A DNA stretch of 64,000 nucleotides from an uncultured Dehalococcoidia bacterium. Lineage in GTDB: Bacteria; Chloroflexota; Dehalococcoidia; Lucifugimonadales; UBA3495. The notes under the pieces were generated by a model that was not told the DNA's origin, made no database searches, and saw only the letters and a program-made list of their open reading frames with translations. Below, piece by piece: positions 10,195-54,482 of the stretch; the stretch's first letter is position 1; every line of letters starts with the position of its first letter. The position numbers were made by a program, and so were the translations under genes. Where the stretch lies: assembly GCA_951813535.1 (NCBI GenBank), contig OX638345.1, positions 1,733,158 through 1,797,157 of the forward strand. The letters run 5' to 3'.

Positions 10195-10650
10195 TCACCG
10201 TAACAAGACGAGAGCGGCGGTGAAATGCAGGAAGCCCAGGTATCTGGTGTCCAGTTTCTCAAACCGGGAGAATATCCGGCGATAGTGTTTCATCTTGCCG
10301 ATGAAGCATTCCACCAGATGACGCTCCCGGTACAGATGACGGTCATAATCAGCGGGTTCCTTGCGGTTCGAGGGGGGCGGAATGACCGGGGTCATGCCCA
10401 GTTCCAGGATGTGCTGGCGAAACTCCCGAGCGTCATATCCTTTGTCGGCCAGTACGTGCTCGCCAGCGTAACCCGCGATCAACCCCTCCGCCTGGGTGAT
10501 GTCGTGCTGTTGCCCTCCGGTCAGGATGAACCGCAAGGGGTTGCCCAAGCCGTCCACGCTCACGTGAACCTTCGTGCTGAACCCGCCTCGGCTCCGGCCC
10601 AGGGACTGGGCGGCCTGACCGCCTTTTTGGGGGGCGCTCCCGCCGCGCAA
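10195..10650 (-). CDS. IS5-family transposase, orfB
   Basis: This is the C-terminal half of the DDE transposase (about 150 residues), probably made only as a fusion with orfA after a -1 frameshift. It supplies the second Asp ('VLADKGYDA') and the Glu ('HLVECFIGKMKHYRRI'). The sequence ends right at the left inverted repeat. All three acidic residues are present across the two frames, so the element may still be active. Confidence 0.88.
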   Translation of the reverse strand: MRGGSAPQKGGQAAQSLGRSRGGFSTKVHVSVDGLGNPLRFILTGGQQHDITQAEGLIAGYAGEHVLADKGYDAREFRQHILELGMTPVIPPPSNRKEPADYDRHLYRERHLVECFIGKMKHYRRIFSRFEKLDTRYLGFLHFTAALVLLR

Positions 10651-10955
10651 GGGTGCGCCCGTACCACCGTGCTGTCAATGATCAGGTATTCCAGATCAGG
10701 GTCGTCGGAGAAACATTGATGCATCTGTTCCCAGACGCCTTGGTCAGTCCAACGGGCGAACCGTTTGTAGACGGTGTTCCAGTTCCCGTACTCGGCTGGC
10801 AGCAGTCGCCATTGCGCCCCAGAGCGGTTGATCCATAAGACGGCCTCGACAAACCGTCGGCAATCCGCTTCCTGGCCGACGTACACGCCAGTGCAGCCAC
10901 GCCAGAAATCGAGAATCCTGACCCACTGTTCCGGTGATAGTCTGATGTTTGACAT
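10560..10955 (-). CDS. IS5-family transposase, orfA
   Basis: This 131-residue N-terminal half of the transposase starts at the ATG at 10955 just inside the repeat. It has the N-terminal helical DNA-binding domain ('SPEQWVRILDFWRG', 'WINRSGAQWRLLPAEYGNW') and the first catalytic Asp in 'YLIIDSTVVRAH'. Translation probably passes to orfB by a -1 slip at CAAAAAG inside a C-run/A-run (about 10626-10637), as is common in IS5-family elements. If unshifted it ends in a short basic tail. Confidence 0.88.
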   Translation of the reverse strand: MSNIRLSPEQWVRILDFWRGCTGVYVGQEADCRRFVEAVLWINRSGAQWRLLPAEYGNWNTVYKRFARWTDQGVWEQMHQCFSDDPDLEYLIIDSTVVRAHPCAAGAPPKKAVRPPSPWAGAEAGSARRFT

Positions 10956-10986
10956 GCGGCCATTGTAATCAAATGTCAACAGAGCC

Positions 10987-11736
10987 TAGTGTCATCTGTA
11001 GCAAGGCAGCGGCAAAATGCAAGTCAACCATTTTTACAAACGTGCGGTATTCTGAACAACCGTGACGCCAACGCGCCGGCAATGCCGGCAATGGCCGGCG
11101 AAGCGTCACGAGGGTCTGGCCCTGAAGTCTGGGCTCCAGCAAACCTGGAGTATCAGATTTCATCCGATACTGAATAGCGGCGTGCGCAGAGTGCCGCGGA
11201 TGTGGGATCAGCTGCTGGGCGACAATGTTGCGAGGCGTTGTTCTCACGTCCGCTCTTCGACGAATCGATACTGCGATTTATAAACGAGATCACACGTTAA
11301 CATGCAAATAAATTAACGTGCCTACGCGCATGTGCGTCGACGCAAAAGCACCTGAGATCATCATACGGCCCGCGTTCGCGTCATGGCGATCATCGCGAGC
11401 CTGATCGGTCGTTCCGGGAAACAGTCCAAGGCGCGCGATTCCATAGGTCTCCGTCGTCGGCACTGCGTTACCCTGTGCTTGCGCTGATACACTCCCAAAT
11501 CTGCACGGCACTACGTCAACGCGTTGACGTATTTATGCACATGGACGTCGCAACTCATTTGCGGTGGTGCGTCTCCGTTTCAACGCGCTCATATACTTGT
11601 ACATTAGATCGGCGGCGTGTCTGCATCTCCTACCCTACGTTGAGAAAGCGCCTCGACATTCTGGTACGCGATGCGACCATTTCGGGGAATACCGGAGCCT
11701 CATGTTAGGATGGCTCCTCCGGGGGAGACTAGCGCT
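10987..11736. other. 750-bp gap without a recognised gene
   Basis: No open frame here has a convincing start or product. It contains an 18-bp perfect palindrome at 11513-11530 (listed separately). It lies between the IS5-family element and the leader ORF of the PLD-NTPase gene and is the likely promoter region of that gene. Confidence 0.5.
11513..11530. promoter_or_regulatory. perfect 18-bp palindrome, possible operator
   Basis: ACGTCAACGCGTTGACGT is its own reverse complement. It lies about 225 bases before the leader ORF and 270 before the PLD-NTPase gene, in a gene-free gap. Dimeric repressors commonly bind sites of this form. No matching regulator gene is adjacent. Confidence 0.45.
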
Positions 11737-11796
11737 ATGACCGGGTTAGCCGTAGTTCTGGTGGATGATGAGGTCCTGACCTATGACCAGCCGTAA
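11737..11796 (+). CDS. 19-residue leader ORF overlapping the PLD-NTPase start
   Basis: An ATG preceded by GGGGGAG opens a short frame (MTGLAVVLVDDEVLTYDQP). It ends at TAA 11794-11796, 14 bases inside the next gene. The main gene has only a weak site (GATGAGG) of its own, so ribosomes ending on the leader could restart on its ATG. This would couple or throttle translation. It could also be a remnant of a longer gene. Confidence 0.4.
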   Translation: MTGLAVVLVDDEVLTYDQP

Positions 11797-13837
11797 CCGA
11801 CGCAACGTCGCCGACCAGGAGGCCATGCCGCAGTTCGGGTTCGCCCTGGACGACCCCGACTCCCGCACCCGGTCACCGCAGCTTCAGGCGGTTTATGCCC
11901 AGGCGCTGCGCGTGGAACCGTTCAACATGGACCTGTTCGCTGGGTTCACCAGGATGCGGGCGCTCACCTACACCTCGAGCATTCCCATGGTGCTCCGTCT
12001 GCTCCGGGATTACGACTACGACGACTTCGAGTGCGTCTTCGGTCACGGCGGGGTGCTGAGCCGGGACGCGGCGGACCTGCTGGCGTTCCAGAGCGTGGTG
12101 CAGAACAAGCTGAACCAGGGTTTTGTGGGCGCTCGCGGCATCTCGCCGGAGCGGCGGGAGGTGATCTACCGGCGGGCGGCCGAGGGCAGCGCGCGTTTCC
12201 TGGTCGTGAAGGACGCGGTGGCCCACGCCAAGATCTACCTGCTGGAGCGGGAGGACAAGCGGCGGGTGATTGTCGGCTCGGCGAACCTGTCAGAAAACGC
12301 TTTCTCCGGCCGCCAGGCGGAGACGCTGACGGTGTTTGACGATGATGCGGTGGCGTGGGAGCACTTCAGCCGCCAGTACGAGGACGTGCGCAGCGTGGCC
12401 ACCAGCAACATGCCCCTGAGGGCGGAACCGCTGACGGGTGATCTGGTGGGAAACACCCCAGCCCTCAAAGATGCCGAGGAGCATCCTGACGGCGTGACCA
12501 TCTTCCTGCCGGCCCAGACCGAGGACGAGGTCCAGTTCAACGCCCCCTACGTGCTCCGGGAGGTGGAGCGCATCGCGCCGGTGCACCGCCAGGTGCTGGC
12601 CGACCTGCGCCCCGACCGCAAGGGAATGCTCAAGATCGTGCCCCAGGTGGTCAAGCAGATGACCCGCATCGCCACCGCGCGCCATGACGAGGCCAAGCCG
12701 GCGACGTCGCTGTCCTACGACGGCCGGACCCTGTGGCTGTCGGGCCAGGCGGTGTCGCTGAAGACCGACGCCGACCAGGTGGCCAGCGACGTGGCGGCGT
12801 GGCTGGAGTTCTTCGGCAACTACGAGAACGGCTTTGTGGGCGATGTGCCCCGGATGCAGCGGGACTACTTCACCTTCATGTGCTGGTTCTACTTCAGTCC
12901 GTGGATGTGCGACCTGCGCAACGCGGCGCTCCGCGCCAACACCTTCAGCTTCGACCGGCCGATGTTCGCCATCGTGTACGGGGAGAGCAACTGCGGGAAG
13001 AGCAGCCTGATTGAGACGCTGATGACGTCGATGTTCGATTACCCGCGGATCGTGGAGACGCCGTACTTCACCCGGCGGAACCTGCGGGCGCTGCAGGCGG
13101 CGTACCAGAGGTTTCCGGTGGTGTTCGACGATATCCACGACGACCGGTTCCGGCGGCACGCGCCGGAGGTGATCAAGGACGAGCACATACCGTATGCGGA
13201 GTACCCGTGCATCGCGCTGTCGATGAACGCGGACGCGCGGAACTTCCAGCCGGAGATCGTGAAGCGGTCGCTGATGATCTGGACGACCACGTCGTTGCCG
13301 GGGGACGCGATCACGTCGATCAGGCAGCTGCGGCGTTCGGTAACGGGGATCACCAACCGGATGAGCACGGCGCTGTACCGGCGCTATCTGGCGGAGACCA
13401 GGGAGTTGCTGGATGAGATGGACGAGCAGGACATCCAGGATGCCGACGTGCTGGAGGTGTCGTCAACGGCACTGTGCCGGTTGTTCGAGGAGCACCTGCC
13501 GCCGGGGGTGGAGTTGCCGGAATGGTGCGCGCCCATGACGCTGCACCAGTACCAGAACCGCGCCTTCGAGCAGCCCCGGTCGGTGCTGGAGGGGTTGATC
13601 CATCCCGACAAGTTCACCCGGGCGCGGCGGCCGGGGATCGGGGACTGGACCATCGTGGGAGACCAGGTGATCATCGGCATCGAGCCATTGGGCGCCCGGC
13701 GGATCAGGGACGAGATTCCCAACTGGATCCTGAACCGACCGGCGAGCATCTCGGGACAGATCGTGCTCAAGAAGGAAACACTGGACAGTTTCCTGGGACA
13801 GATCACGCGGCCGCCGCGCCGGTTCCGCTGGTTCTGA
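11783..13837 (+). CDS. phospholipase D-fold / P-loop NTPase fusion protein
   Basis: This 684-residue protein has two clear parts. Residues 50-200 form a PLD-type domain with one HxK motif (H148, K150) followed by 'VIVGSANLSENAF', the GSxN half of the site. PLD-fold proteins with one motif usually dimerise and often act as nucleases. Residues 390-505 form a P-loop ATPase with Walker A GESNCGKSS (K406), Walker B 'VVFDDIHDD' (D449, D450), a sensor-like 'SMNADARN' and a possible arginine finger at R495, like superfamily 3 helicases. The C-terminal 150 residues are unassigned. It stands alone among mobile elements and broken nucleases, a typical defence-gene setting. A DNA-acting defence or element-maintenance role is inferred. 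Confidence 0.82.
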   Translation: MTSRNRRNVADQEAMPQFGFALDDPDSRTRSPQLQAVYAQALRVEPFNMDLFAGFTRMRALTYTSSIPMVLRLLRDYDYDDFECVFGHGGVLSRDAADLLAFQSVVQNKLNQGFVGARGISPERREVIYRRAAEGSARFLVVKDAVAHAKIYLLEREDKRRVIVGSANLSENAFSGRQAETLTVFDDDAVAWEHFSRQYEDVRSVATSNMPLRAEPLTGDLVGNTPALKDAEEHPDGVTIFLPAQTEDEVQFNAPYVLREVERIAPVHRQVLADLRPDRKGMLKIVPQVVKQMTRIATARHDEAKPATSLSYDGRTLWLSGQAVSLKTDADQVASDVAAWLEFFGNYENGFVGDVPRMQRDYFTFMCWFYFSPWMCDLRNAALRANTFSFDRPMFAIVYGESNCGKSSLIETLMTSMFDYPRIVETPYFTRRNLRALQAAYQRFPVVFDDIHDDRFRRHAPEVIKDEHIPYAEYPCIALSMNADARNFQPEIVKRSLMIWTTTSLPGDAITSIRQLRRSVTGITNRMSTALYRRYLAETRELLDEMDEQDIQDADVLEVSSTALCRLFEEHLPPGVELPEWCAPMTLHQYQNRAFEQPRSVLEGLIHPDKFTRARRPGIGDWTIVGDQVIIGIEPLGARRIRDEIPNWILNRPASISGQIVLKKETLDSFLGQITRPPRRFRWF

Positions 13838-14456: not shown

Positions 14457-14945
14457 TTGACTATGCAAACGGACGATCCAGGAACGACGGACCATCTCCA
14501 ATGGCTTGAAAGTGTGGTGCCCGATTTGGAGGAGCTGGAAGGGTCGCTGGCTACTGAGCGATGTGGCCGGGTACTGGCATTAGAGCAATTCGCGCTGTCC
14601 GAACCCCTCCAAGAGCTGGAGAAGCTCGTTGCCGAGCAGTGCAACGAATTTGACGCCCTGGACTTTGTCGGCCAATTGAGAATGGGTTCGGGCAAGCCGC
14701 TTTGGGGCGACGAGGAGTTTCAGTCCAACCTGCTGGCCTGGTTATTGGATCCCCAGGGCAGTCATGGGACCGCTGATTATTTCCTCAGGAGCTTCTTGAG
14801 CTTGGCTTCGACCGGCTGGTTGACTTCGGGCGGGTCGATGAACGCAGCAGCGCCACCATTGATCAGGCTGCCCAGTTTTGGCCGTGACATCTCCTCGTCG
14901 AGATCGACAGGTATTTGTCGGCTAACACGCCGTAAACCGGTGTGA
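14457..14945 (+). pseudogene. PD-(D/E)XK nuclease-superfamily protein, truncated by frameshift
   Basis: The first 115 residues match the N-terminal region of a PD-(D/E)XK family: 'NEFDALDFVG', then 'EEFQSNLLAWLLDPQGSHGT', then 'YFLRSFL'. After base 14797 or so the family-like sequence continues in another frame ('LELGFDRLVDFGRVDE') and meets a stop, while the original frame runs into unrelated sequence. The catalytic core with the D-(D/E)xK residues is missing. It sits after another nuclease remnant, so this stretch looks like decayed defence genes. The start may be ATG 14463. Confidence 0.6.
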
Positions 14946-15114
14946 ATTCCGGCCCGCATCTCGGCGGGACATTCACCCTTTGTGACTGCAGGTCTGCCAT
15001 GGCCGACCGTTCCCCGAGATGAGTCCTAAACTCCCGCCGTTGAGTCACAGAAGTTAGAGCGGAGGCGGTTGTTGCTGGGCCGGCTTGTCTTCGACGCGCT
15101 GTGAGCGGCGACAC

Positions 15115-16602
15115 TCAGGATTGTTCACGAATGGGAAGACCTGCTTCTCTTAGAACATCCTCCACAGCGTATGCTAATCTCCAAGCCTTGCCCTTGATTG
15201 AGGATGTACTTCCACCCGTCCCTTTCTTGATGTGGTATGTGCCTGTCCCAAGAGGCCCGACGACAATGGTACCTTCTGACCCGTTTTCAACTGGAAAGTT
15301 CAGCGTAGCCACTATGAAATCGTCCTCAGTTACCTGAAAGTCCTTGATCGGGTCCGCGAAAAGGGAACACAAACGGCGTATGCACGGTTCAATGTGCCAG
15401 GCGGAACTGGCTACTCCAGGTTTGACGTCCCGGTTGCCCAAGATCCCGCCTACAGCGTATCGCAGCGCCTGGACGGCCGCGTAGGTGGTCGTCATTTCCT
15501 CCAGACCCTCGGGTAAATCCGTTAGGTCGTAACGATATGGCCCAATTGGCACGTTGTCGGGTTCATGGACGACTAGCGGCGGCCTACTAGGGGCCGACAA
15601 CAGGGCTCGGCCCGTCTGGGGGCGTTGTTGGTCCGCGGTGGGCTCACTATTTTTTCCGACTGTGGCAGCCTCAAAAGTGGCGCTGTCCTTTGACCATTTA
15701 ATCGTAGGCAATGTCAGACCATCAGTTTCCTGGTCGCGCGTTTCCATAGTCCCGAGCATCTCCAGAGAAACGCTGAGGTCTAATGTTTTGGGGGTCGTTT
15801 TGTCCTCTGTCAGCACCAAAAAACGGTATTCCCGCTGGTCGCGGTACTTATCGTGTTTCACGAATGCGGACCTGACTATGAAATCCCAGTTGTCCCGAGC
15901 GTCGGAAATCGTCCCGTAGGGGTCTTCCACGTATACCACTGGCCCGTGGAGGACCAATTGAGTCTCATGCTCGGTCACCAGTCGGAGTTCGCCGTCGTAC
16001 GAGTGTTTCATTTCTTCTGGCTTGCCTTGAGGCCCGAATTGCTCGGCGACCATTGAGGCGAGGGCGCGGGCAAACTTGCGGGGGCGAGATATGTACCACT
16101 TGTGGTCGTAGTCATCAGGCATGGTCGCTTGCCATCTGTCCGTCTCGTCGGCATCTGACGGCTCTACCGAAGCGCAAAAGATCCACCAGTTTTGACCGTA
16201 AGTGAGCCTTCGGGTCGTTGTTTCCGATCTCTTCACCGTACTGGTGTTGGTCGTGATGGGTGAACCCGCCAGTTCCGATGCCTTGTTGCGCTCAGAATCC
16301 AGGAGCCGGGCCGTTGCCAGGTCGTCGGGATGGTCGATACTCTCGGTAACCACAGTCTCGCGGGACGCATTACCTTCCCCGGGGTCTCGAATCAGGTTTT
16401 CACCATACTCCCTGAATAACTCTGGCTTGGAGATCCGCAGTGTCCTGCTGACTTCCGGAGCGTAGTTCGTGTTGCAGGCTTTGACCAAAATCGTAATGGG
16501 TAAATGCTGCTCGGGGTCGCGCAAATCAACGTAAGTCGTGCTAATCAGATTTCCGGCATCATTAATGTAGAAGCCCTCGTTCATCAGGAAGGGGCGTTCC
16601 AA
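15115..16602 (-). CDS. hypothetical protein of 495 residues
   Basis: The TTG at 16602 is chosen as start because AAAGGAG lies 7 bases upstream; the longer frame has no such signal. The protein is soluble. A central part (about residues 130-290) contains 'GQNWWIFCASVEP' and 'HDKYRDQREYRFLVL', the layout of DUF2971-like proteins, where a Trp-rich strand is followed by a 'K..DQREYRF' segment. The C-terminal 100 residues form a separate alpha/beta domain ('DFIVATLNFP', 'GTIVVGPLGTGTYHIKKGTG'). The family is not firmly recognised. It lies next to nuclease remnants and IS elements, so an accessory or defence role is possible. Confidence 0.7.
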   Translation of the reverse strand: MERPFLMNEGFYINDAGNLISTTYVDLRDPEQHLPITILVKACNTNYAPEVSRTLRISKPELFREYGENLIRDPGEGNASRETVVTESIDHPDDLATARLLDSERNKASELAGSPITTNTSTVKRSETTTRRLTYGQNWWIFCASVEPSDADETDRWQATMPDDYDHKWYISRPRKFARALASMVAEQFGPQGKPEEMKHSYDGELRLVTEHETQLVLHGPVVYVEDPYGTISDARDNWDFIVRSAFVKHDKYRDQREYRFLVLTEDKTTPKTLDLSVSLEMLGTMETRDQETDGLTLPTIKWSKDSATFEAATVGKNSEPTADQQRPQTGRALLSAPSRPPLVVHEPDNVPIGPYRYDLTDLPEGLEEMTTTYAAVQALRYAVGGILGNRDVKPGVASSAWHIEPCIRRLCSLFADPIKDFQVTEDDFIVATLNFPVENGSEGTIVVGPLGTGTYHIKKGTGGSTSSIKGKAWRLAYAVEDVLREAGLPIREQS

Positions 16603-38901: not shown

Positions 38902-39726
38902 TCATGCCACGGACACAGTGGGAGATCCCGGGTCTGCGGTCAGGACACCGTAGCGGAAGAGCTTGAGCAGGTTGTGGGTGGTGCGGATCAGGGACCATTC
39001 CCCGTTGATGTTCTCCAAACCCCTCAACAGGAACGGCCGGAAGCCTCCACCCTGCTTGATCTGGCCGAAGACCGGCTCCACGGTCTCCATGCGCAGGGTG
39101 TAACGCTGCCGACCACGCTTGGTCTGCAACTTGCGGCGCATCCGGTCTCCGAGCGACAGATGCCCGAGGATGCGTCCTCGGGGCGCCGACGGCGGTTGGT
39201 GTCCGTGGCGGGTCTTCTCCGGCGCGATGAATGGGTCCACCCCCAAGGCGTGGAGATCGGCGACGGCTTGAGCCGAGTAGTAACCGGCGTCAGCGTATGC
39301 TTCTTTGGGCGCCGCGCCGATGTTGTCGATGGTCTCCTCCAGCATTGCCACCGCCGGCTGCTTGTCCGATGCCTGGTTGGTGGCTCGGGCCGCCACGATC
39401 ACCTGATGCTCATGATCGACCACCGCCCGGCAGTTGTAAGCCTGCAGGAAGTCCCAGCCGCCCGGCCCGGGCATGATGCGGGACTGGGGGTCAGTGAAGT
39501 TGCGCTGGGCCTTGTCGTCGGGCACCCCAGGATGATCCTTGCCCTCCTCTGCCGCCCGCTCCGCCTGCGCCTGCGCCTCGGCTTCCAAGGCAGCCATGGC
39601 CTCGCGGATATTCTCCAACTTGCCCTCCCGAAAGGCCAACTCCTCCGGTAACTCATCACCGCGCTTGTCCCGGCCATACTGGCGGCCTTCCTCCTCATCC
39701 ACTTCCTGGGACTCTACGGGGTTCAC
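38902..39726 (-). pseudogene. IS1182-type transposase, 5' truncated
   Basis: About 274 residues match the C-terminal half of an IS1182-type transposase: 'YGRDKRGDELPEELAFREGK' with the long E/A-rich helix, 'NFTDPQSRIMPG' and 'AYNCRAVVD' (catalytic region), 'AYADAGYYSAQ', then 'QIKQGGGFRPFLLRGLENI' (Glu region) and a normal end. The N-terminal half is missing and the upstream sequence is unrelated after about 39700. No terminal repeats were found, so it is a remnant. Confidence 0.75.
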
Positions 39727-45991: not shown

Positions 45992-47425
45992 ATGCCGCCA
46001 TCCCTGATCCTGCGGATTACAGATACCGTTTCCGGCCGAACCGCTGCCCTGCGGTTGGACGACCCTGCCGACCAGGAGGCGCCGTTGGGTTGTCTGCTAG
46101 GACGCCACCTGAAGAACGCGCCCAACGACGACCGACTGATTCGCACCGGCGCCATTGCGACCGACGGCCTGCTGTCCATGCGAAACCTGCAGGATCTGGT
46201 GTACCGTTCCGACGACTCCGGCCGGCTGACGGGTGTATTCGCGGGCGTGAAGTTTCTCCAGGAAGGCCGACCAGCCGCCCTGGACCGGCCGGCATCGATT
46301 CAGTCCGCGGCAGCCGGCGACGCTCCGCTGCAATTGATCGATGTGGCGGTGGACCGCACCGACGCTGGCTACGACCGCAACTGGACCGGCTTTCACCTTC
46401 GCCGTTGGAAGCACGACCCCCATTTCCATGAGCGCTTCGTGCGGAGCGTCGTGGCTGCGGCCTACGGTCCGAGGGAGGTCGACTGGGTGTTGCGCGCGGA
46501 TACGCCGTGCCGGCAACGAAAGTTGATCCGTGCGTTGGCCTTGCACATCTGGAACAGCGATTTCGAGAACTACTCACGTTACTCGAACGACGGTTTGCGG
46601 TTCAAGACGGGCGACGAGACTGTGCGCAACATCGCGGCGGGCGCCGGTGGAATCTGCACCGAGAAGGTGCAGGCGTTGAAGTTCCTAACCGACCACTACG
46701 AACTGGAGTCGGAATACCTGCTTGGCGGCCCCAATGCGCCGGGGCCGGTTCCGGCCGACCGTTTGCGGGAAATGCTGAACACCTTCGATTTCCGCTTTGC
46801 ACAGCGCCATATGCGCTACTGGCAACACGCTGCCCTGCTGTACTGGGTGGATGGCGAGCCTCTGTTGGTGGATGCCACCAACGGCAACATTCCATTCCTC
46901 TTCCTCCGAGGCGAGGCCGCCAGCCGGCTGTTGGCCAACGACGCCGAAGGAATCCGCCCGAGCGTGTCGGTGCAGATGGTGGCGGAGGCGGAAGACTACC
47001 ACTATCACCGGGTCGACCAGGACATTCCTCAGGACCTGTTTTTCGCCCTTGAAGGTTGGTTGGACGACACCGACCTGGTGCAAGTTTTCGAGAACGAACT
47101 TGGTCTCTACCTGTCCGATCGGCACTACGTGATGCCGCTGCCCTACCGCAGCGAAGGGGACTTCCGGCGTTTGAAACACCGGTACGGGGAACTCTGCCGC
47201 AACGCCGGTTTTCGGGCTGACGTGAGTGCGGATTGGACCCTGGACGGGCCGATAGGCCAGGAACTGGCCGCTTGCAATCCGACGGCAGCGGCGCGCGTGC
47301 TGGCAGCGCGAGACCAGCTCATCGCCCGCTACGACTGGTGGGATGGTCCGGGCCACCGGTCCGGCCTGGCCGTGATCGCTCTGAAACCGTCCTCCGTGGC
47401 CTCAGGCGCCGGGCAAACGCCATGA
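45992..47425 (+). CDS. transglutaminase/NAT-fold (papain-like) protein coupled to SecA-like gene
   Basis: With ATG 45992 the product is 477 residues; the open frame allows a start up to 70 codons earlier, but that stretch looks less protein-like. A papain-like triad is visible: Cys222 in 'AAGAGGICTEKVQALKFL', His279 in 'RYWQHAALLYW' and Asp294 in 'LLVDATNGNIPF'. These are the transglutaminase / arylamine N-acetyltransferase core elements. Flanking N- and C-terminal parts (180 and 150 residues) are unassigned. No signal peptide is seen. Its last four bases (ATGA) overlap the SecA-like gene, so the two act together. It could modify or cleave a cargo of that SecA, which is inference. Confidence 0.72.
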   Translation: MPPSLILRITDTVSGRTAALRLDDPADQEAPLGCLLGRHLKNAPNDDRLIRTGAIATDGLLSMRNLQDLVYRSDDSGRLTGVFAGVKFLQEGRPAALDRPASIQSAAAGDAPLQLIDVAVDRTDAGYDRNWTGFHLRRWKHDPHFHERFVRSVVAAAYGPREVDWVLRADTPCRQRKLIRALALHIWNSDFENYSRYSNDGLRFKTGDETVRNIAAGAGGICTEKVQALKFLTDHYELESEYLLGGPNAPGPVPADRLREMLNTFDFRFAQRHMRYWQHAALLYWVDGEPLLVDATNGNIPFLFLRGEAASRLLANDAEGIRPSVSVQMVAEAEDYHYHRVDQDIPQDLFFALEGWLDDTDLVQVFENELGLYLSDRHYVMPLPYRSEGDFRRLKHRYGELCRNAGFRADVSADWTLDGPIGQELAACNPTAAARVLAARDQLIARYDWWDGPGHRSGLAVIALKPSSVASGAGQTP

Positions 47426-50400
47426 GCGGAGGCCGGGAGAAGTCGAAACTTCGGATGCGCGGGGTGCGGCGCGGGCGCTCGCGGGAAGACCGGATCCTGC
47501 GTCGCATCCGGACGCTCCGGAGCGAGCAGGGGGTCGCCAACTGGTCGGACCGAGAACTGCGAGAGGCCGCATGTTGTCTGAGTGATGGCTCTGCATCCTC
47601 GGAATCCGTACCGGAGGACACGCTGGTCCGTGTGTTCGCAGTGGTTGACGAGTCCATACGCCGCCGCCTGGGGTTGTGGAAAGTCTTCGACCTGCCGGAT
47701 TCGGACGACGAACCGAGTATCGCAGACGCCCGCAGCAAGCTGGCCGCCACCGGCCGGGGTCGTTACCCGGGAAGCGATACGCTCCTTCCGGCGGAGTTTT
47801 ACCGGGCCGCCCGCCGCCGGAAGGATGGCGACACCGAGGGACTGCACTTTCGCCCCACCGATCAGCAATTGCTGGCTGGCCTGCACCTGTACAACGGTCG
47901 CATCGTGGAGATGGCTGCTGGTGAGGGGAAGACCGTGGCCGCCGCCTTCCCGGCCGCGCTCTACGGTCTCATGGGTCGCACCGTTCACGTCGTCACCGCC
48001 AACGACTACCTGGCTGCCCGGGACTGCGAACTGCTGGCGCCGGTGTACCGGGCGTTGGGGTTGACAGTTGGAGCGGTGCTGGACCACATGGCCGGACCGG
48101 AGCGCTGCGTGTCCTACGGCAACCGGATAGTCTACGGCACGCTGCGCGAGTTCGCTTTCGACTACCTGCGCGATCGGCTGGTCATGTCCCCCAGCGAGCA
48201 AATCCAGGGGCCGCTGGACGTCGCCATCATCGACGAGGCGGACCAAACGCTGCTCGATGAGGCTGTCACCCCCCTGGTCATCGCCGGTGCGCCTATCCTC
48301 ACCCGGCGGACGATCATAAGGGCCGACCGTGCGGTGCGGGAACTGGTGGCGGAGCAGACCAGGTTGGCGGAAGAATGCCGGCACGAGTTGGACCGACACG
48401 TCGCAGGCGGCCAACCCGACGACAGGTCGGCAATGCTCTTGGCCCGGGTCATGCTGTCCCAGCCCGACGACGAAGCAACGCGACGTCTGGCCGCTGCTCA
48501 TCCCCGCCTTCGTCGCCGCGCATTGTCCCTGGTGGATGCGGACGGCTCCGGCCGGCCCCACCCGGAGGTTGAGGAAGGCTTGCTCTGCGCGGTGGATGCG
48601 CAGCGGGGCAGCTTGAGCCTGTTGACCGAGGGTGTGGCCTTCCTCGAAGCTCAACTGGGCGACTTCTATTCCGCCAACGCTGTCGACCCGGACGCCGGTG
48701 GAGGCTCACGCCGGGCCGTTCTGCGGGCCAACCTGGTCAACCAGGTGCACCAGCTGCTGCGGGCTCACCTCCTGCTGCGTCGTGGGATCGAATACGTGGT
48801 CGACGATGACCAGGTGGTGCTGGTGGACCGGGACACCGGCCGACCCCGACCCGACACTCACTATCAGGACGGATTGCATCCGGCGGTGGAAGCCAAGGAA
48901 GGAGTGCCAATCCACCCTGACCACCGCAACCTTGGAGAGATCAGCGTCCCAGGCTTCGTCCGACGCTACCGCAGCGTCGCTGGCCTCACCGGAACCGCTC
49001 GAGGGGCGGCCGAGGAGTTCCGCCGCCTGTACGGTTTGGATGTGGAGGTGGTTCCCGATGGGCGGCGCGCGCCGGTCAAGCGTTTCGGCCGTCGGGACCT
49101 TCCCAGCCGGGTGTATGCTCATCCCGACGACCAGCTGAGCGCCGTCGTCGACGAAGCCCGCTACTTTCAGAAGTGGGGACGACCCACGCTGGTGGCCACG
49201 CGGACCGTCTTCCAGTCGGAGATCATCAGCCAACGCCTGACGGAAGCCGGTATCGTCCACCGTCTGCTCAACGCGTCCGCCAACCAGGATGAAGCGGACA
49301 CTGTTCGTGAGGCCGGACAACCTGGCGCCGTCACGGTAGCGACCAACATGGCCGGTCGCGGCACGGATGTGCTGCTATCGTCCGGCCTTGACCGGCACGT
49401 CCTGGATCGCTTCGTCTCCCTGCTGGAACAGATGATAATGGCGGACCCCGAGGGCGGGGCGGTGGAAGTGCGGGCCAACACCTCCGGAGAAGCCGACCTG
49501 CTGGCCCGGGCAGTTGAGGCGAACCCCCAACTGTCGGCCCGCCGTGCCGGTGTCGACCGGTTGATGGTGCATCCACGCGGGATGACGCCGGCCCTCCCGG
49601 CGGCCGGCACGCTGGAGTTTGGACTGGGCCTTCACCTCGTCAGCACCGAGTTCAATGACTCGCCTCGGGTCGCGTTGCAACTGCAGGGACGCAGCGGCCG
49701 GCAGGGCGCGTTCGGCTCCACCCGCAGCTTGTTGGTCAGATCAGATCGTTGGCTGGCCGGTCTGGAGTACGGACGCCCGGCGCCGGACTCGGCGGGCCGA
49801 GTTTGCTGGGAAGGGCCGGAGCTCGAACGACAGTTGAGGCGCCAGCGGGAAGCAGCCCAGCAGGACGCCTCCAGTGCGCGGGCGCTGTTGCTGGAATACG
49901 CTGCGGTGTTGGACACCCACGCCGACGCTTATTATCGGTCCCGGCAGGAGACGCTGGTTGCCAGGCCGGACCGCCTCGGCCAGCGGGCGCATGACGCGGC
50001 ACGATCCGCAGCAGCCGGTCTCGTCGGCGGGCATTTCCCCAATCTGGTCGCCGACGACTATGCGCGACGGTTCGCGTCCCTGGCGACGGAGCTACGCGTC
50101 CGGTATGGCGTGGATGGCGAGCCGGCGCGGGGCTGCTCTCTGACCGGATTGGGAGCCGCATTGGCCGATCTGATGGAGCAGCATCTGGCAGAGCGGCGGG
50201 AACGCTCGGGGGCGGCACAGTTCGGCGAGCTGGCCCGGTTACTGCTTTTGCAGGCCGGCGATGAGCTGTGGGAAAATCACCGGGCTGACCTGAGGAGCAT
50301 GGCCATCGCCTCTCAATTGGATGCGCATGGGCCGAAGACCGCGATAGCCGAATACATAATCGCCGCCGCTGATGCCTGGCAACATTTCCGGAATGAAATA

Positions 50401-50526
50401 TCCAATCGCTTCCTTTCCCAGATGTTGCATTTTCCCATCGTCGGACCGACTGGCTCACCGGAGGATAGCCCCGAGCAGCTTTCGCGGTTGGCCGTGGATC
50501 CACGGCTTGCCGAGCTCGTATCTTGA
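47422..50526 (+). CDS. divergent SecA-like protein translocase ATPase
   Basis: The ATG at 47422 overlaps the previous stop by four bases and gives 1034 residues. The SecA motor is clear: Walker A 'MAAGEGKTVAAAFPA' (K170), DEAD box 'IIDEADQTLLDEAVTPLVI' (271-274), 'DGLHPAVEAKEGV' (484-496), 'VAGLTGTA' (519-526), 'VATNMAGRGTDVLL' (639-652) and 'LQLQGRSGRQGAFG' (752-765). It differs from housekeeping SecA. It has an insert of about 80 residues (655-735) between the GRGTD motif and the 'LHLVSTEFNDS' strand, STEFNDSPR in place of GTERHESRR, a basic N-terminal tail, and no C-terminal zinc motif. It is probably an accessory SecA dedicated to its operon partners. Confidence 0.88.
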   Translation: MSGGREKSKLRMRGVRRGRSREDRILRRIRTLRSEQGVANWSDRELREAACCLSDGSASSESVPEDTLVRVFAVVDESIRRRLGLWKVFDLPDSDDEPSIADARSKLAATGRGRYPGSDTLLPAEFYRAARRRKDGDTEGLHFRPTDQQLLAGLHLYNGRIVEMAAGEGKTVAAAFPAALYGLMGRTVHVVTANDYLAARDCELLAPVYRALGLTVGAVLDHMAGPERCVSYGNRIVYGTLREFAFDYLRDRLVMSPSEQIQGPLDVAIIDEADQTLLDEAVTPLVIAGAPILTRRTIIRADRAVRELVAEQTRLAEECRHELDRHVAGGQPDDRSAMLLARVMLSQPDDEATRRLAAAHPRLRRRALSLVDADGSGRPHPEVEEGLLCAVDAQRGSLSLLTEGVAFLEAQLGDFYSANAVDPDAGGGSRRAVLRANLVNQVHQLLRAHLLLRRGIEYVVDDDQVVLVDRDTGRPRPDTHYQDGLHPAVEAKEGVPIHPDHRNLGEISVPGFVRRYRSVAGLTGTARGAAEEFRRLYGLDVEVVPDGRRAPVKRFGRRDLPSRVYAHPDDQLSAVVDEARYFQKWGRPTLVATRTVFQSEIISQRLTEAGIVHRLLNASANQDEADTVREAGQPGAVTVATNMAGRGTDVLLSSGLDRHVLDRFVSLLEQMIMADPEGGAVEVRANTSGEADLLARAVEANPQLSARRAGVDRLMVHPRGMTPALPAAGTLEFGLGLHLVSTEFNDSPRVALQLQGRSGRQGAFGSTRSLLVRSDRWLAGLEYGRPAPDSAGRVCWEGPELERQLRRQREAAQQDASSARALLLEYAAVLDTHADAYYRSRQETLVARPDRLGQRAHDAARSAAAGLVGGHFPNLVADDYARRFASLATELRVRYGVDGEPARGCSLTGLGAALADLMEQHLAERRERSGAAQFGELARLLLLQAGDELWENHRADLRSMAIASQLDAHGPKTAIAEYIIAAADAWQHFRNEISNRFLSQMLHFPIVGPTGSPEDSPEQLSRLAVDPRLAELVS

Positions 50527-50571
50527 GTTGTGCCTCCCGACACCTCGTCGGGCACATAGGAGTTGACTGAT

Positions 50572-51447
50572 ATGGCGCCACGAATCAGCCGAATCGTTCT
50601 GGCAATGTCCGCCGGCAGTTTATTGGCGGGTGCGCCCGTGTTGGCCGCCTGCGGGCCTTCCGACAGCGGTGCCAGCTACAGCCAGTGGGCGGCTACCGAC
50701 GGCGCCGCCGGCCGCATCAACCTGGACGACGTGCAGCAGGCGTTTATAGAGTCGAGCAGCGCCACCGAATTCGAAGACCGGGTCAATGAAATTTACGAAG
50801 GCGACGGCCTCATTCTGATCCGCGCCCGCCAGGACGGCGACCGCCTCACGCTGGAAGGATGGGAGGACCTGGACGCCAACAACCGGATTGACGACGCGAC
50901 GGACGACCAACTCTTTGCCATCGTCAAGGAGGACGAACAGCACCAACTGCGGGGCTACCACGCCAATTCGTACTACAACAGCCACTTCGGCGCCGGTGAT
51001 TTCCTCTTCACCTACCTGATAATAAGCAGCCTGAGCCGGGGTCCCTACTACTACCAGACGGGTCCCGACCGGGCAACGACGGTCCGGCAGGATCGAGCCT
51101 CGTACCGCGGCTCCAGTCGCTACGACACGCAGTTGAACCGCAACCGGCAGTATTCGTCCCGCCAGCAGACCTACGCCGGTTCCAGCTACCAGGATGCGGG
51201 ACGCAACGTGAGTTCGGGGCGTCAGACCTATCAGCAAACGCAGAGGTCGTCGGGCGCCTTCCGCAGCAGCAGTTCTCTGACGCGCGGCAGTTCGTCCATT
51301 TCCCGCAGCTCCACGATCGGAGGAGGCGCCGGATCGACCATATCACGGAGCGGTAGCCTCGGTGGTTTCAGCGGCGGCGGGGGCCGGGTCCACTTCCTGG
51401 ACCAGCCGGAGGGCGACGCCGCGACACGTCCCGCCTGGCTGGCCTGA
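50572..51447 (+). CDS. predicted lipoprotein with Ser/Gln/Tyr-rich tail
   Basis: The ATG at 50572 follows TAGGAG by 9 bases. The N-terminus has basic residues, a hydrophobic stretch and the lipobox VLAAC, with lipidation at Cys27. Residues 55-150 form a compact acidic domain ('VNEIYEGDGLILIRARQDGD', 'WEDLDANNRIDDATDDQLFA'). The stretch 'GAGDFLFTYLIIS' may touch the membrane. From about residue 165 the protein is low complexity, rich in Ser, Arg, Tyr, Gln and Gly. It lies 45 bases after the SecA-like gene and may be its cargo or docking partner. DUF4247-like lipoproteins occur in PspA/DUF350 neighbourhoods, but I cannot confirm membership. Confidence 0.72.
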   Translation: MAPRISRIVLAMSAGSLLAGAPVLAACGPSDSGASYSQWAATDGAAGRINLDDVQQAFIESSSATEFEDRVNEIYEGDGLILIRARQDGDRLTLEGWEDLDANNRIDDATDDQLFAIVKEDEQHQLRGYHANSYYNSHFGAGDFLFTYLIISSLSRGPYYYQTGPDRATTVRQDRASYRGSSRYDTQLNRNRQYSSRQQTYAGSSYQDAGRNVSSGRQTYQQTQRSSGAFRSSSSLTRGSSSISRSSTIGGGAGSTISRSGSLGGFSGGGGRVHFLDQPEGDAATRPAWLA

Positions 51448-51451
51448 GCCT

Positions 51452-52543
51452 ATGCACGGCGGTGACGACGCCGGCCTTGCGGTTTCGGTGTGGACGAACC
51501 GGTTGCCGGCGGATACGGCCCTGCAAGTCAACCTGCCGGGCGAAGCCCGCCGCCTCACGCTGCGTCGGTTGCTGGACCGGCTCTTCCCGCCCGATGCCGG
51601 CGACCGCGCTGAAACCGTAGCCCGGTTGGACCGGCGGGCCAATCCCGACCTGCCGGCCTGCTACGCGGAGCTGCTGACGCTGACGGAACAGTGGCGAGCC
51701 GGACTCTGCCGGCTCTCTCTGACCTCGGGACGCGGTTGGGGTCGGCCGGCCCACCTCGACGACCCGGTATCCGCCCACTTGCGACCGCCGCCCCTGTGTC
51801 TCCGTGCCGGCGCCTGGGACGACGCTGAGCTGACGCTGACGATTCTTCCCGCCTATCGCCCGGTAGACTGGGCGGTGGCGCAGGGGTATGCGGCGAATCG
51901 AGATCACCTATTGGACTGGATGCAGTCCTGCGCGTTGCTCTACTTCGTGGACAAGCATGGCTGCGCGGTGCCCCCGCCTTCCGACCTCTCCCGGTCAGAC
52001 CCCTGCCGACCCGTGGTGTCCGGCCTGTACCGCCGCCGTTGCCTGCGACCCAGCGAAGACGGAGCAGGATCAGAAGTGGCGCCGGCCGGCCGTGAGCTGA
52101 TTGGCGCACTGCTGGCGGAGACGGAGGCGCTGATCGACGGTTTCGACCTGTTCAAGGACGCCCGCTGGAACGAGGACGCGCAGGGGGCGGAGTTCGACAG
52201 CGGGCGTGGCGCCGACTTGCGGGTTGAAGCTATCATCGCTGAGGGCCTGGATCCAGTGCGCGCCGTGTTCCTGTTGCGGCTCTACGACGGAACCCTGGAT
52301 CCCTATGCCGACCAATGGCAACAGCTGGTGGGAGACCCGGCGTGTTTTGACCAACTGCTGGAACCGGTCGTGAACCGCCCCCAGCCGCCTCCTCCCGACG
52401 CGGTTCTCGCGGCCATCATGGAGGACGGCTACTCGCTGCTGGAAACTCGGGCTGAAGTAACTGCCGACAGCCAGGCACAGTCCGAAATTCAGCGTCGCCT
52501 GCTGACCCATCAAGCTGCCGCCGGGCCTGATGCCGAGGATTGA
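51452..52543 (+). CDS. hypothetical protein, last gene of the SecA-like module
   Basis: The ATG at 51452 lies 4 bases after the lipoprotein stop; the frame is open upstream but that part overlaps the lipoprotein gene. The 363-residue soluble protein is rich in Leu, Asp and Arg. Landmarks are 'EARRLTLRRLLDRLFPPDAG', 'LTLTILPAYRPVDWAVAQGY' and a C-terminal helical part ('GYSLLETRAEVTADSQAQSE'). No family is recognised. Tight spacing argues that it belongs to the same complex as the SecA-like ATPase, the papain-fold protein and the lipoprotein. Confidence 0.7.
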   Translation: MHGGDDAGLAVSVWTNRLPADTALQVNLPGEARRLTLRRLLDRLFPPDAGDRAETVARLDRRANPDLPACYAELLTLTEQWRAGLCRLSLTSGRGWGRPAHLDDPVSAHLRPPPLCLRAGAWDDAELTLTILPAYRPVDWAVAQGYAANRDHLLDWMQSCALLYFVDKHGCAVPPPSDLSRSDPCRPVVSGLYRRRCLRPSEDGAGSEVAPAGRELIGALLAETEALIDGFDLFKDARWNEDAQGAEFDSGRGADLRVEAIIAEGLDPVRAVFLLRLYDGTLDPYADQWQQLVGDPACFDQLLEPVVNRPQPPPPDAVLAAIMEDGYSLLETRAEVTADSQAQSEIQRRLLTHQAAAGPDAED

Positions 52544-52592: not shown

Positions 52593-53474
52593 TCAGATGA
52601 CAATGAGCAGTATCAGTGCGGAACTCACCACCACCGCGGTTTCGACGAAGGCCACTCCCACGTTGCGCCCACCTGCTACCTGCTGGGAAACCCGCGTGTG
52701 GGGCAACAATACCAGGTCCACCGCCACCCGCAGGACATACAACAGAACGAAGCCCACCACCGAGTAGACGACAAACTCCAAAATCCCAGCCTGCCAACCG
52801 ACGAAGTCGCCGAAGGTGGCCTTGAAGGTGACCAGGCCGATTGCGATCAGGTTGCCGCCCAGAGCGATGCCCACCGCCGGGTTGTCGCGTTCAATCTCAT
52901 CGTGGATGTTGAAGGGCGTAGTCCATTCGTAGAACAGGGCGAACAGGATCAGGATCCCCAGGCCCAGGCCGAAGAACGCCAGGGCGTTGAGCGGGCCACC
53001 CTCACCGGCGATTGCTCCGGCAATGACCAGGCCGGAAGCGACGTTCACGCCAAACTCCGCTGCTGCCGCTCCTGCATTCTGATCCTGGATGATTTCGCGC
53101 TCCAGCTCGAATCGGTACAGCACCAACCGGTCGGTGACCAGCCGCATCAGGTTCAACGCAACGATTCCGGCCAGTGAGTACAAGAAAACCCACAGCACTT
53201 CCAGGCCGAAGGCGCGATCGAGTCCCAACCCGATATAGCCGTCGCCTCCCAGCGGCTCGTACACGGCCCCGAGGAACACGAGGATGACGCCCATCAAGTA
53301 CCCCGACAGGCGCAGCGCCACCGCGAGGTTGCCTTTGGTTACGATCTCCTCCTCGATACCGTGGCGAGTAACGACGTCCCGGGCCAGTTTCGCCAGGATC
53401 AATACCACCAGGCCCAGCGCCACGTAGATCAGTCCGCGAGGAAGGTAGGTCAATATGTCAATCAGTATGTCCAC
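52593..53474 (-). CDS. DUF350 membrane protein (two repeats)
   Basis: The GTG at 53474 has GGAG 9 bases upstream, giving 293 residues; longer frames read into the DUF4178 gene. About eight membrane segments form two DUF350 units, each with a conserved 'GNLAVALRLSGYLMGV' or 'NPAVGIALGGNLIAIGL' strand-helix. DUF350 proteins often travel with PspA, DUF4178 and polyamine enzymes in membrane-stress clusters. It lies 28 bases after the DUF4178 gene on the same strand. The transported species, if any, is unknown. Confidence 0.86.
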   Translation of the reverse strand: MDILIDILTYLPRGLIYVALGLVVLILAKLARDVVTRHGIEEEIVTKGNLAVALRLSGYLMGVILVFLGAVYEPLGGDGYIGLGLDRAFGLEVLWVFLYSLAGIVALNLMRLVTDRLVLYRFELEREIIQDQNAGAAAAEFGVNVASGLVIAGAIAGEGGPLNALAFFGLGLGILILFALFYEWTTPFNIHDEIERDNPAVGIALGGNLIAIGLVTFKATFGDFVGWQAGILEFVVYSVVGFVLLYVLRVAVDLVLLPHTRVSQQVAGGRNVGVAFVETAVVVSSALILLIVI

Positions 53475-54314: not shown

Positions 54315-54482
54315 ATGAGTAAAGCGGTTTTAATTCTGCTGGGCCTGGCCCTGCTGGCCCTGGGCATCCTGATGGTCCTTGGCGTTCTGGATTTCCTGCT
54401 CCGCATCGCCGGTGTGCTGTGCATCCTTGCGGCGGTGGTGATGTTGGGGATGGCCTTCTTCGGTTCGAGACGCGGCTATTGA
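54315..54482 (+). CDS. small two-helix membrane protein
   Basis: This 55-residue protein is almost entirely two hydrophobic helices ('VLILLGLALLALGILMVLGV' and 'IAGVLCILAAVVMLGMAF') with a basic end. A longer frame exists from 54117 but its added part is not protein-like. Only a weak binding site is visible (GGAGG 17 bases upstream). It lies 71 bases before pspA on the same strand and may help to anchor or sense membrane state, like PspB/PspC-type small proteins, without sequence similarity that I can see. Confidence 0.6.
   Translation: MSKAVLILLGLALLALGILMVLGVLDFLLRIAGVLCILAAVVMLGMAFFGSRRGY

Follow-up and report, generated by a model that had tools for sequence, protein, structure and literature searches.

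A divergent second SecA encoded in a conserved PspA-linked gene cluster of SAR202-type Chloroflexota

Introduction

Canonical SecA pushes its substrate with a two-helix finger, and in E. coli SecA the tyrosine at the finger tip is important. Most known SecA paralogues come from Gram-positive bacteria and from a type I secretion-like locus. Here we describe a divergent second SecA (SecAx) from SAR202, a marine lineage that is abundant and, for the most part, uncultivated. SecAx is encoded in a 64,000-nucleotide stretch of DNA (the window) from an uncultured Dehalococcoidia bacterium of the order Lucifugimonadales (assembly GCA_951813535.1, contig OX638345.1, positions 1,733,158 to 1,797,157, forward strand). 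The gene belongs to a conserved and co-inherited set that also specifies a papain-fold protein predicted to resemble arylamine N-acetyltransferases (NAT-like), a lipoprotein, a protein with a predicted ubiquitin-like fold, DUF350 and DUF4178 proteins, the pair PspA-PspAA, a DUF3326 protein and a pyridoxal phosphate (PLP)-dependent decarboxylase. This set, gained or lost together in some SAR202 genomes, probably represents one previously undescribed membrane-maintenance system. With a probability of roughly 0.5, we consider SecAx to be an accessory SecA motor in a PspA-linked envelope-maintenance system of SAR202-type Chloroflexota, to which an amine-acylation activity is attached.

The closest described neighbourhoods are operons of PspA, DUF350, DUF4178, lipoprotein and polyamine genes, for which a role linking envelope stress to membrane dynamics has been proposed; AAA+ ATPases and chaperones recur with PspA, and a PspA-PspAA dyad is also described (Ravi et al. 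2024, PMC11237479). Our cluster shares with these operons PspA, a two-unit DUF350 protein, DUF4178 and a lipoprotein, as well as amine-metabolism genes and, here in relatives, a K+ channel with a ligand-sensing domain. It differs in that the main text of PMC11237479 mentions neither SecA, papain nor ubiquitin, whilst a spermine/spermidine synthase-like gene and an ATP-grasp ligase were not found among the scanned cluster genes. Instead, the SecAx cluster has the NAT-like protein, adenylate-forming ligases, GNAT, DUF3326 and the PLP decarboxylase. There was no Pfam match to a CesT/Tir-type PspA partner in the cluster, where the fourth core protein and a small membrane protein matched no family.

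On the motor side, secondary SecA_DEAD proteins of other phyla lie in a type I secretion-like locus and have wholly or partly lost the wing/scaffold (Kamneva et al. 2015, PMC4452313). SecAx resembles them in being a divergent additional SecA whose locus is conserved, but it retains the wing/scaffold and its scanned neighbours have no HlyD, peptidase M50 or GAF Pfam match; the main text of PMC4452313 does not mention Chloroflexi. The SecA2-only pathway (actinobacterial and Listeria SecA2) shares with SecAx a second SecA alongside one SecY and the lack of a zinc tail. SecAx differs from it by having fixed partner genes, two large inserts and changes in the finger and ESRR motifs, and from the SecA2/SecY2 accessory Sec system in that its single-contig genome has no second, dedicated SecY. 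Among open-licence papers, none was found that connects a second SecA, or the SecAx cluster, with SAR202 or Chloroflexi. There was no relevant PADLOC match to anti-phage defence.

Results

SecAx and its place in the SecA superfamily

The source genome is one 4.38-Mb contig, 99.8% complete, with two SecA genes and a single SecY. Besides SecAx there is a separate, canonical SecA of 882 amino acids (aa) with a zinc tail; SecAx is an accessory and not the housekeeping copy, and the initial annotation is not refuted on this ground. An initial annotation of the window had described SecAx as part of four tightly packed genes, and the coordinates and homologue-supported starts agree: the NAT-like and secA genes share an ATGA overlap, 45 bases separate secA from the lipoprotein gene, and 4 bases separate the latter from the fourth gene.

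SecAx scored over the Pfam cut-offs for PF07517 (246 bits), PF21090 (124), PF01043 (57.9) and PF07516 (43.9; wing/scaffold, residues 803-1003). The SecA DEAD, preprotein cross-linking, P-loop and wing/scaffold domains are thus all recognised, which places the protein in the SecA superfamily. It fell short of the models for housekeeping SecA (TIGR00963, 434 bits with 800 needed; NF009538, 454 with 814) and of those for SecA2 (TIGR03714, 368 of 930 bits; TIGR04221, 352 of 725; TIGR04397, 396 of 1085; NF012136, 300 of 1100).

We compared 37 SecAx with 32 housekeeping SecA of the order. The motor motifs GEGKT, DEAD/DEVD, TGT, AGRGTD and GRSGRQG are kept across SecAx with rare single changes. In the window's SecAx they are intact and GTERHESRR reads STEFNDSPR; intact motor motifs and an altered GTERHESRR had both been noted in the initial annotation. 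The extra sequence noted at that time, given as an insert of 80 residues, is real, but it is not a single insert: there are two family-wide expansions and a longer N-terminus. The first lies between the preprotein-binding domain and DEAR and adds about 72 residues in all SecAx (median 112, compared with 40 in housekeeping SecA); the second, in most SecAx, adds about 60 residues between AGRGTD and the ESRR motif (93 compared with 33). In the window's SecAx these two stretches measure 115 residues, against 40, and 92 residues, against 30. The C-terminal zinc motif is present in 0 of 37 SecAx. In one SecAx (L158 6872-9940, genome G040), the exact GEGKT string is absent from the extracted frame and the branch is very long; this copy may be degenerate or mis-framed.

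In the trees, all 37 SecAx grouped together in a fully supported clade that was separate from the housekeeping SecA of the order. Grouping with Firmicute SecA2 was rejected (approximately unbiased (AU) test, p 0.0038) which, together with the single SecY, upholds the proposed distinction from SecA2/SecY2. An origin by duplication of the order's own SecA was not favoured, although the AU value (p 0.053) is short of rejection. SecAx joined the Gordonia SecA2 (100/99), the sole actinobacterial-type representative, a grouping that is tentative in view of a long-branch warning. A search for plasmid-borne relatives of SecAx found only ordinary SecA and SecA2. In a congener (G009, L027 2338-5013), about 5 kb lies between the SecAx cluster and the housekeeping secA, which is upstream and is encoded on the other strand.

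Co-inheritance of the cluster

We followed the cluster in 250 genomes of the order, in 300 genomes of the phylum, and in a scan of 84,980 species with one genome each. The species scan used two short conserved peptide patterns of the NAT-like protein, which very distant relatives would escape. Most relatives are metagenome-assembled genomes, in which absences may be assembly gaps, and their gene starts were set by homology. The NAT-like protein was found in 44 of the 250 genomes of the order. The species scan gave 42 NAT-like loci, all titled Chloroflexi/Chloroflexota, Dehalococcoidia or SAR202. Weak matches in two of the phylum genomes (G278 and G349) were short and without any cluster gene, and were set aside as chance.

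Other parts of the cluster track the NAT-like gene. The lipoprotein is in 43 of the 250 genomes, 40 of which also have the NAT-like gene, and was not found in the sample of 300 phylum genomes outside the order; the corresponding values are 41 of 48 for DUF350 and 36 of 39 for DUF3326. At least two SecA matches were found in 68 of the 250. These five markers (NAT-like protein, lipoprotein, DUF350, DUF3326 and second SecA) co-occur pairwise with Fisher p values from 5e-23 to 5e-38, where the 250 genomes are treated as independent though they are related. The stronger argument for co-inheritance is concordance within genera: in the window's genus, all five markers are present in 5 of 14 genomes and none in the other 9, and in a second genus all five are present in 4 of 12 and none in 8. 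Four genomes have the NAT-like gene without the lipoprotein (G510, G023, G375 and G376), and in each the contig ends at the locus.

Where the cluster is split, its parts are still retained. In G045 the NAT-like gene is at 7 kb and ligases, channel, GNAT, secA and lipoprotein follow at 121-130 kb. In G040 the NAT-like gene and a 268-aa ligase-like gene are at 1.03 Mb, with decarboxylase, DUF3326, ligase, secA, lipoprotein and DUF350 at 2.19 Mb. In G057, DUF350 and DUF3326 lie together at 1.2 Mb and the secA block at 0.13 Mb. One could imagine instead a decayed SecA paralogue hitchhiking beside unrelated genes, as the long branches and the loss of the finger motif (see Discussion) might suggest. 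We consider this extremely unlikely: the ATPase motifs are invariant, the block is conserved in 42 loci, and genome-wide co-occurrence with joint retention after splitting refutes it. For the four genes first described, conservation of the block across many genera likewise excludes a chance neighbourhood, and as the genes do co-occur elsewhere in the order, the initial annotation is not refuted on that ground.

A search for SecAx in 11 genomes (10 of the 23 with extra SecA matches but without the core cluster, plus G017) found none; their matches, at about 850-965 aa, resemble canonical SecA. Two genomes that lack the cluster (G024 and G471; L188-L191) have two canonical-length SecA each (852-868 aa), for which duplication or contamination is possible.

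An extended gene set

The four-gene extent given at first is correct for the genes but not for the boundary at 52543, as the module runs on into PspA/PspAA/DUF350/DUF4178 and DUF3326/PLP decarboxylase (Table 1). The relatives' blocks hold the same genes in conserved order across many genera. The DUF4178 gene adjoins DUF350 in many relatives, and pspA is in the same place in relatives carrying the cluster. The PspAA gene, absent from the earlier description, is directly 3' of pspA. The PLP decarboxylase gene adjoins DUF3326 in relatives, often near the NAT-like gene. Judged from homologues, the DUF350 start is likely the GTG at 53474; the starts of the four core genes agree with their homologues.

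Table 1. Genes of the SecAx cluster and adjoining genes in the window
Product	Coordinates	Strand	Evidence
NAT/transglutaminase-fold (papain-like) protein, 477 aa, Cys222-His279-Asp294	45992..47425	+	Invariant triad, AlphaFold2 fold
SecAx, divergent second SecA, 1034 aa	47422..50526	+	Pfam SecA domains, tree, motif/insert comparison
Lipoprotein, 291 aa, lipobox VLAAC	50572..51447	+	25-member alignment
Fourth core protein, 363 aa, predicted N-terminal ubiquitin-like (beta-grasp) domain	51452..52543	+	AlphaFold2, structural matches
DUF350 membrane protein, two DUF350 units	52593..53474	-	PF03994 2.5e-50, 2 stretches
DUF4178 protein, 209 aa	53503..54132	-	PF13785 29.4 bits, cut-off 25
Small membrane protein, 55 aa, inferred start	54315..54482	+	Homologues in same place in several relatives
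PspA/IM30 homologue, 240 aa	54554..55276	+	PF04012 2e-25
PspAA (PspA-associated protein), 92 aa	55360..55638	+	PF22743 1.8e-31
DUF3326 protein, 453 aa	55717..57078	-	PF11805 2.4e-90
PLP-dependent decarboxylase, ornithine/diaminopimelate/carboxynorspermidine decarboxylase type, 398 aa	57066..58262	-	PF00278 2.3e-12
Voltage-gated-type ion channel, 314 aa	58439..59383	+	PF00520 2.1e-26

In many relatives secA does not directly follow the NAT-like gene; the genes that intervene encode an RCK-type K+ channel, a GNAT and one or two proteins resembling adenylate-forming ligases. This arrangement was seen outside the window's own and some related genera. One of the ligases is matched by the AMP-binding family PF00501; a second protein, of 268 residues, has no Pfam match and, on our reading of its sequence, appears to resemble the N-terminus of adenylate-forming ligases.

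Single loci showed other variation. Near the NAT-like gene of one relative (L042) are genes for a 1095-aa von Willebrand factor A (VWA)-domain protein (10443-13730) and for what we read as a MoxR-like ATPase (14496-15413). In G025 (L037 14651-18330), the secA and lipoprotein genes stand about 3.7 kb apart, and the sequence between them holds no cluster genes. Upstream of the cluster in the window is a DDE transposase gene (38902-39726; PF13751/PF01609).

The NAT-like protein

The residues C222, H279 and D294, singled out in the initial annotation, are invariant in 43 NAT-like sequences. The AlphaFold2 model has a predicted local distance difference test score (pLDDT) of 88 and a predicted template modelling score (pTM) of 0.89. 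Its closest solved folds are arylamine N-acetyltransferases and relatives (Z 10.6-13.4, 216-269 residues aligned, root mean square deviation (rmsd) 4.2-5.2); lower in the list are GdmF amide synthases, at Z about 9-9.6, and transglutaminases, at about 8. Of the transglutaminase/NAT fold first assigned, the NAT half therefore fits well and the transglutaminase half less closely. The protein has no signal peptide, hydrophobic or transmembrane segment. Because NATs lead the fold list, the triad is invariant and there is neither a signal peptide nor a membrane segment, we predict a cytosolic acyltransferase of the arylamine N-acetyltransferase type. NATs and GdmF-type amide synthases share its fold and Cys-His-Asp triad, but identity in the structural alignments is 7-16%, and the NAT-like protein has an extra N-terminal part of about 120 residues. 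There was no match to Pfam or NCBIfam at E up to 1, and nothing useful among PDB sequences.

The same data bear on two other readings of the chemistry. The papain-fold protein could be a transglutaminase that crosslinks the exported lipoprotein, or a protease that processes it, as the triad, the transglutaminase chains in the fold list and a conserved Gln in the lipoprotein tail would allow. We think this very unlikely, given that arylamine N-acetyltransferases score clearly higher and that an enzyme without a signal peptide must act in the cytosol before export. Alternatively, a small-molecule or peptide-conjugate pathway could be central, in which the NAT-like amide synthase, ligases, GNAT and decarboxylase make an acyl-amine that SecAx and the lipoprotein export or attach. 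The nearest structures are indeed NAT/GdmF amide-synthase folds, and relatives carry AMP-binding, GNAT and decarboxylase genes. However, SecA motors move polypeptides, not small molecules, and the window's locus and several relatives keep SecAx and the lipoprotein without ligases or GNAT; such a pathway is distinctly unlikely.

The lipoprotein and the fourth core protein

All 25 lipoprotein homologues keep the lipobox cysteine (VLAAC, C27). The N-terminal domain of the protein is well conserved, and its tail is rich in Ser, Arg, Tyr and Gly.

The AlphaFold2 model of the fourth protein has a pLDDT of 90.7. Residues 1-139, approximately, align to ubiquitin-like or related folds in all 50 rows listed, with modest Z values of 6-6.9 and rmsd mostly of 2.3-3.0 Å. 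The N-terminal domain is predicted to be ubiquitin-like (beta-grasp), a call that rests on the consistency of these modest matches. Weak DtxR/MntR matches and a wing-like sequence follow the first domain, and our guess is that a winged helix and then a helical region lie here. There was no sequence-family match in Pfam or NCBIfam. Homology between the N-termini of the NAT-like and fourth proteins, hinted at by the order of strands and helices, was not supported by profile comparison.

Discussion

SecAx as an accessory motor is consistent with a genome that, on its single contig, encodes one SecY and a second SecA besides the housekeeping copy, and with the retention in SecAx of the ATPase, preprotein-binding and wing/scaffold domains. 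That the cluster is a single system is made probable by the conserved order, the co-occurrence of the markers and the retention of parts in split clusters; that this system concerns the envelope draws on the published association of PspA, DUF350, DUF4178, lipoprotein and polyamine genes with membrane stress (PMC11237479). The NAT-like fold, the cytosolic location of that protein and the true lipoprotein signal also favour an accessory motor with an acylation activity attached. Of the dedicated export or envelope-modification system put forward in the initial annotation, the accessory SecA within a conserved module has stood; dedicated export is still something we infer.

The same qualification applies to translocase activity, use of SecYEG, the client, the chemistry and the role of PspA, which we infer to be as follows. 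Without a SecY of its own, SecAx would work on the single housekeeping SecYEG, as in the SecA2-only pathway, and would export or insert a few envelope clients, of which the neighbouring Ser/Arg/Tyr-rich lipoprotein is the first candidate. The PLP decarboxylase may supply an amine, and the NAT-like enzyme, with ligases where present, may acylate this amine in the cytosol. The resulting amine or polyamine conjugate would modify the client or the membrane, and PspA, PspAA, DUF350 and DUF4178 would stabilise the membrane at that site.

Several observations weigh against this scheme. None of the sampled SecAx has kept the two-helix-finger motif (LRxGIxLRGYxQxDPL), and the position of the finger-tip Tyr is His in the window's SecAx, which makes canonical substrate pushing by SecAx doubtful. 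The window's locus has neither the adenylate-forming ligases nor the GNAT, and the best ligase match of that genome, elsewhere in the genome, has only 32% identity; the cluster chemistry therefore cannot be identical in all members. Of the 47 core genomes, 11 lack DUF3326, and some of these 11 are incomplete.

The loss of the finger motif is also the best argument for our main rival explanation, that SecAx is no longer a translocase but a SecA-derived ATPase that remodels membrane-bound complexes (e.g. PspA assemblies, or a lipoprotein/DUF350 complex). Such a protein would fill the place of the AAA+ ATPases and chaperones of other PspA operons, which recur with PspA (PMC11237479), and would fit with the missing zinc tail, the two large new inserts, the lack of a dedicated SecY and the adjacent PspA-PspAA genes. 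Nonetheless, the preprotein-binding domain and wing/scaffold still score over the Pfam cut-offs and a Sec-type lipoprotein is encoded next door, and we regard remodelling as possible but on balance unlikely. We also hold to be unlikely the more specific proposal that SecAx left translocation and now provides ATP-driven remodelling to a PspA-based membrane-repair or polyamine/acyl-conjugate surface system, in which the ubiquitin-like-fold protein is its partner.

SecAx represents a further, phylogenetically separate kind of SecA, co-inherited genome-wide with PspA, DUF350 and an acyltransferase. The cluster gives a concrete context for DUF350, DUF4178 and DUF3326, and SecAx offers a natural experiment on the features that a SecA must have in order to translocate. 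If SecAx does act as an accessory motor, protein export would be linked to membrane-stress control in SAR202.
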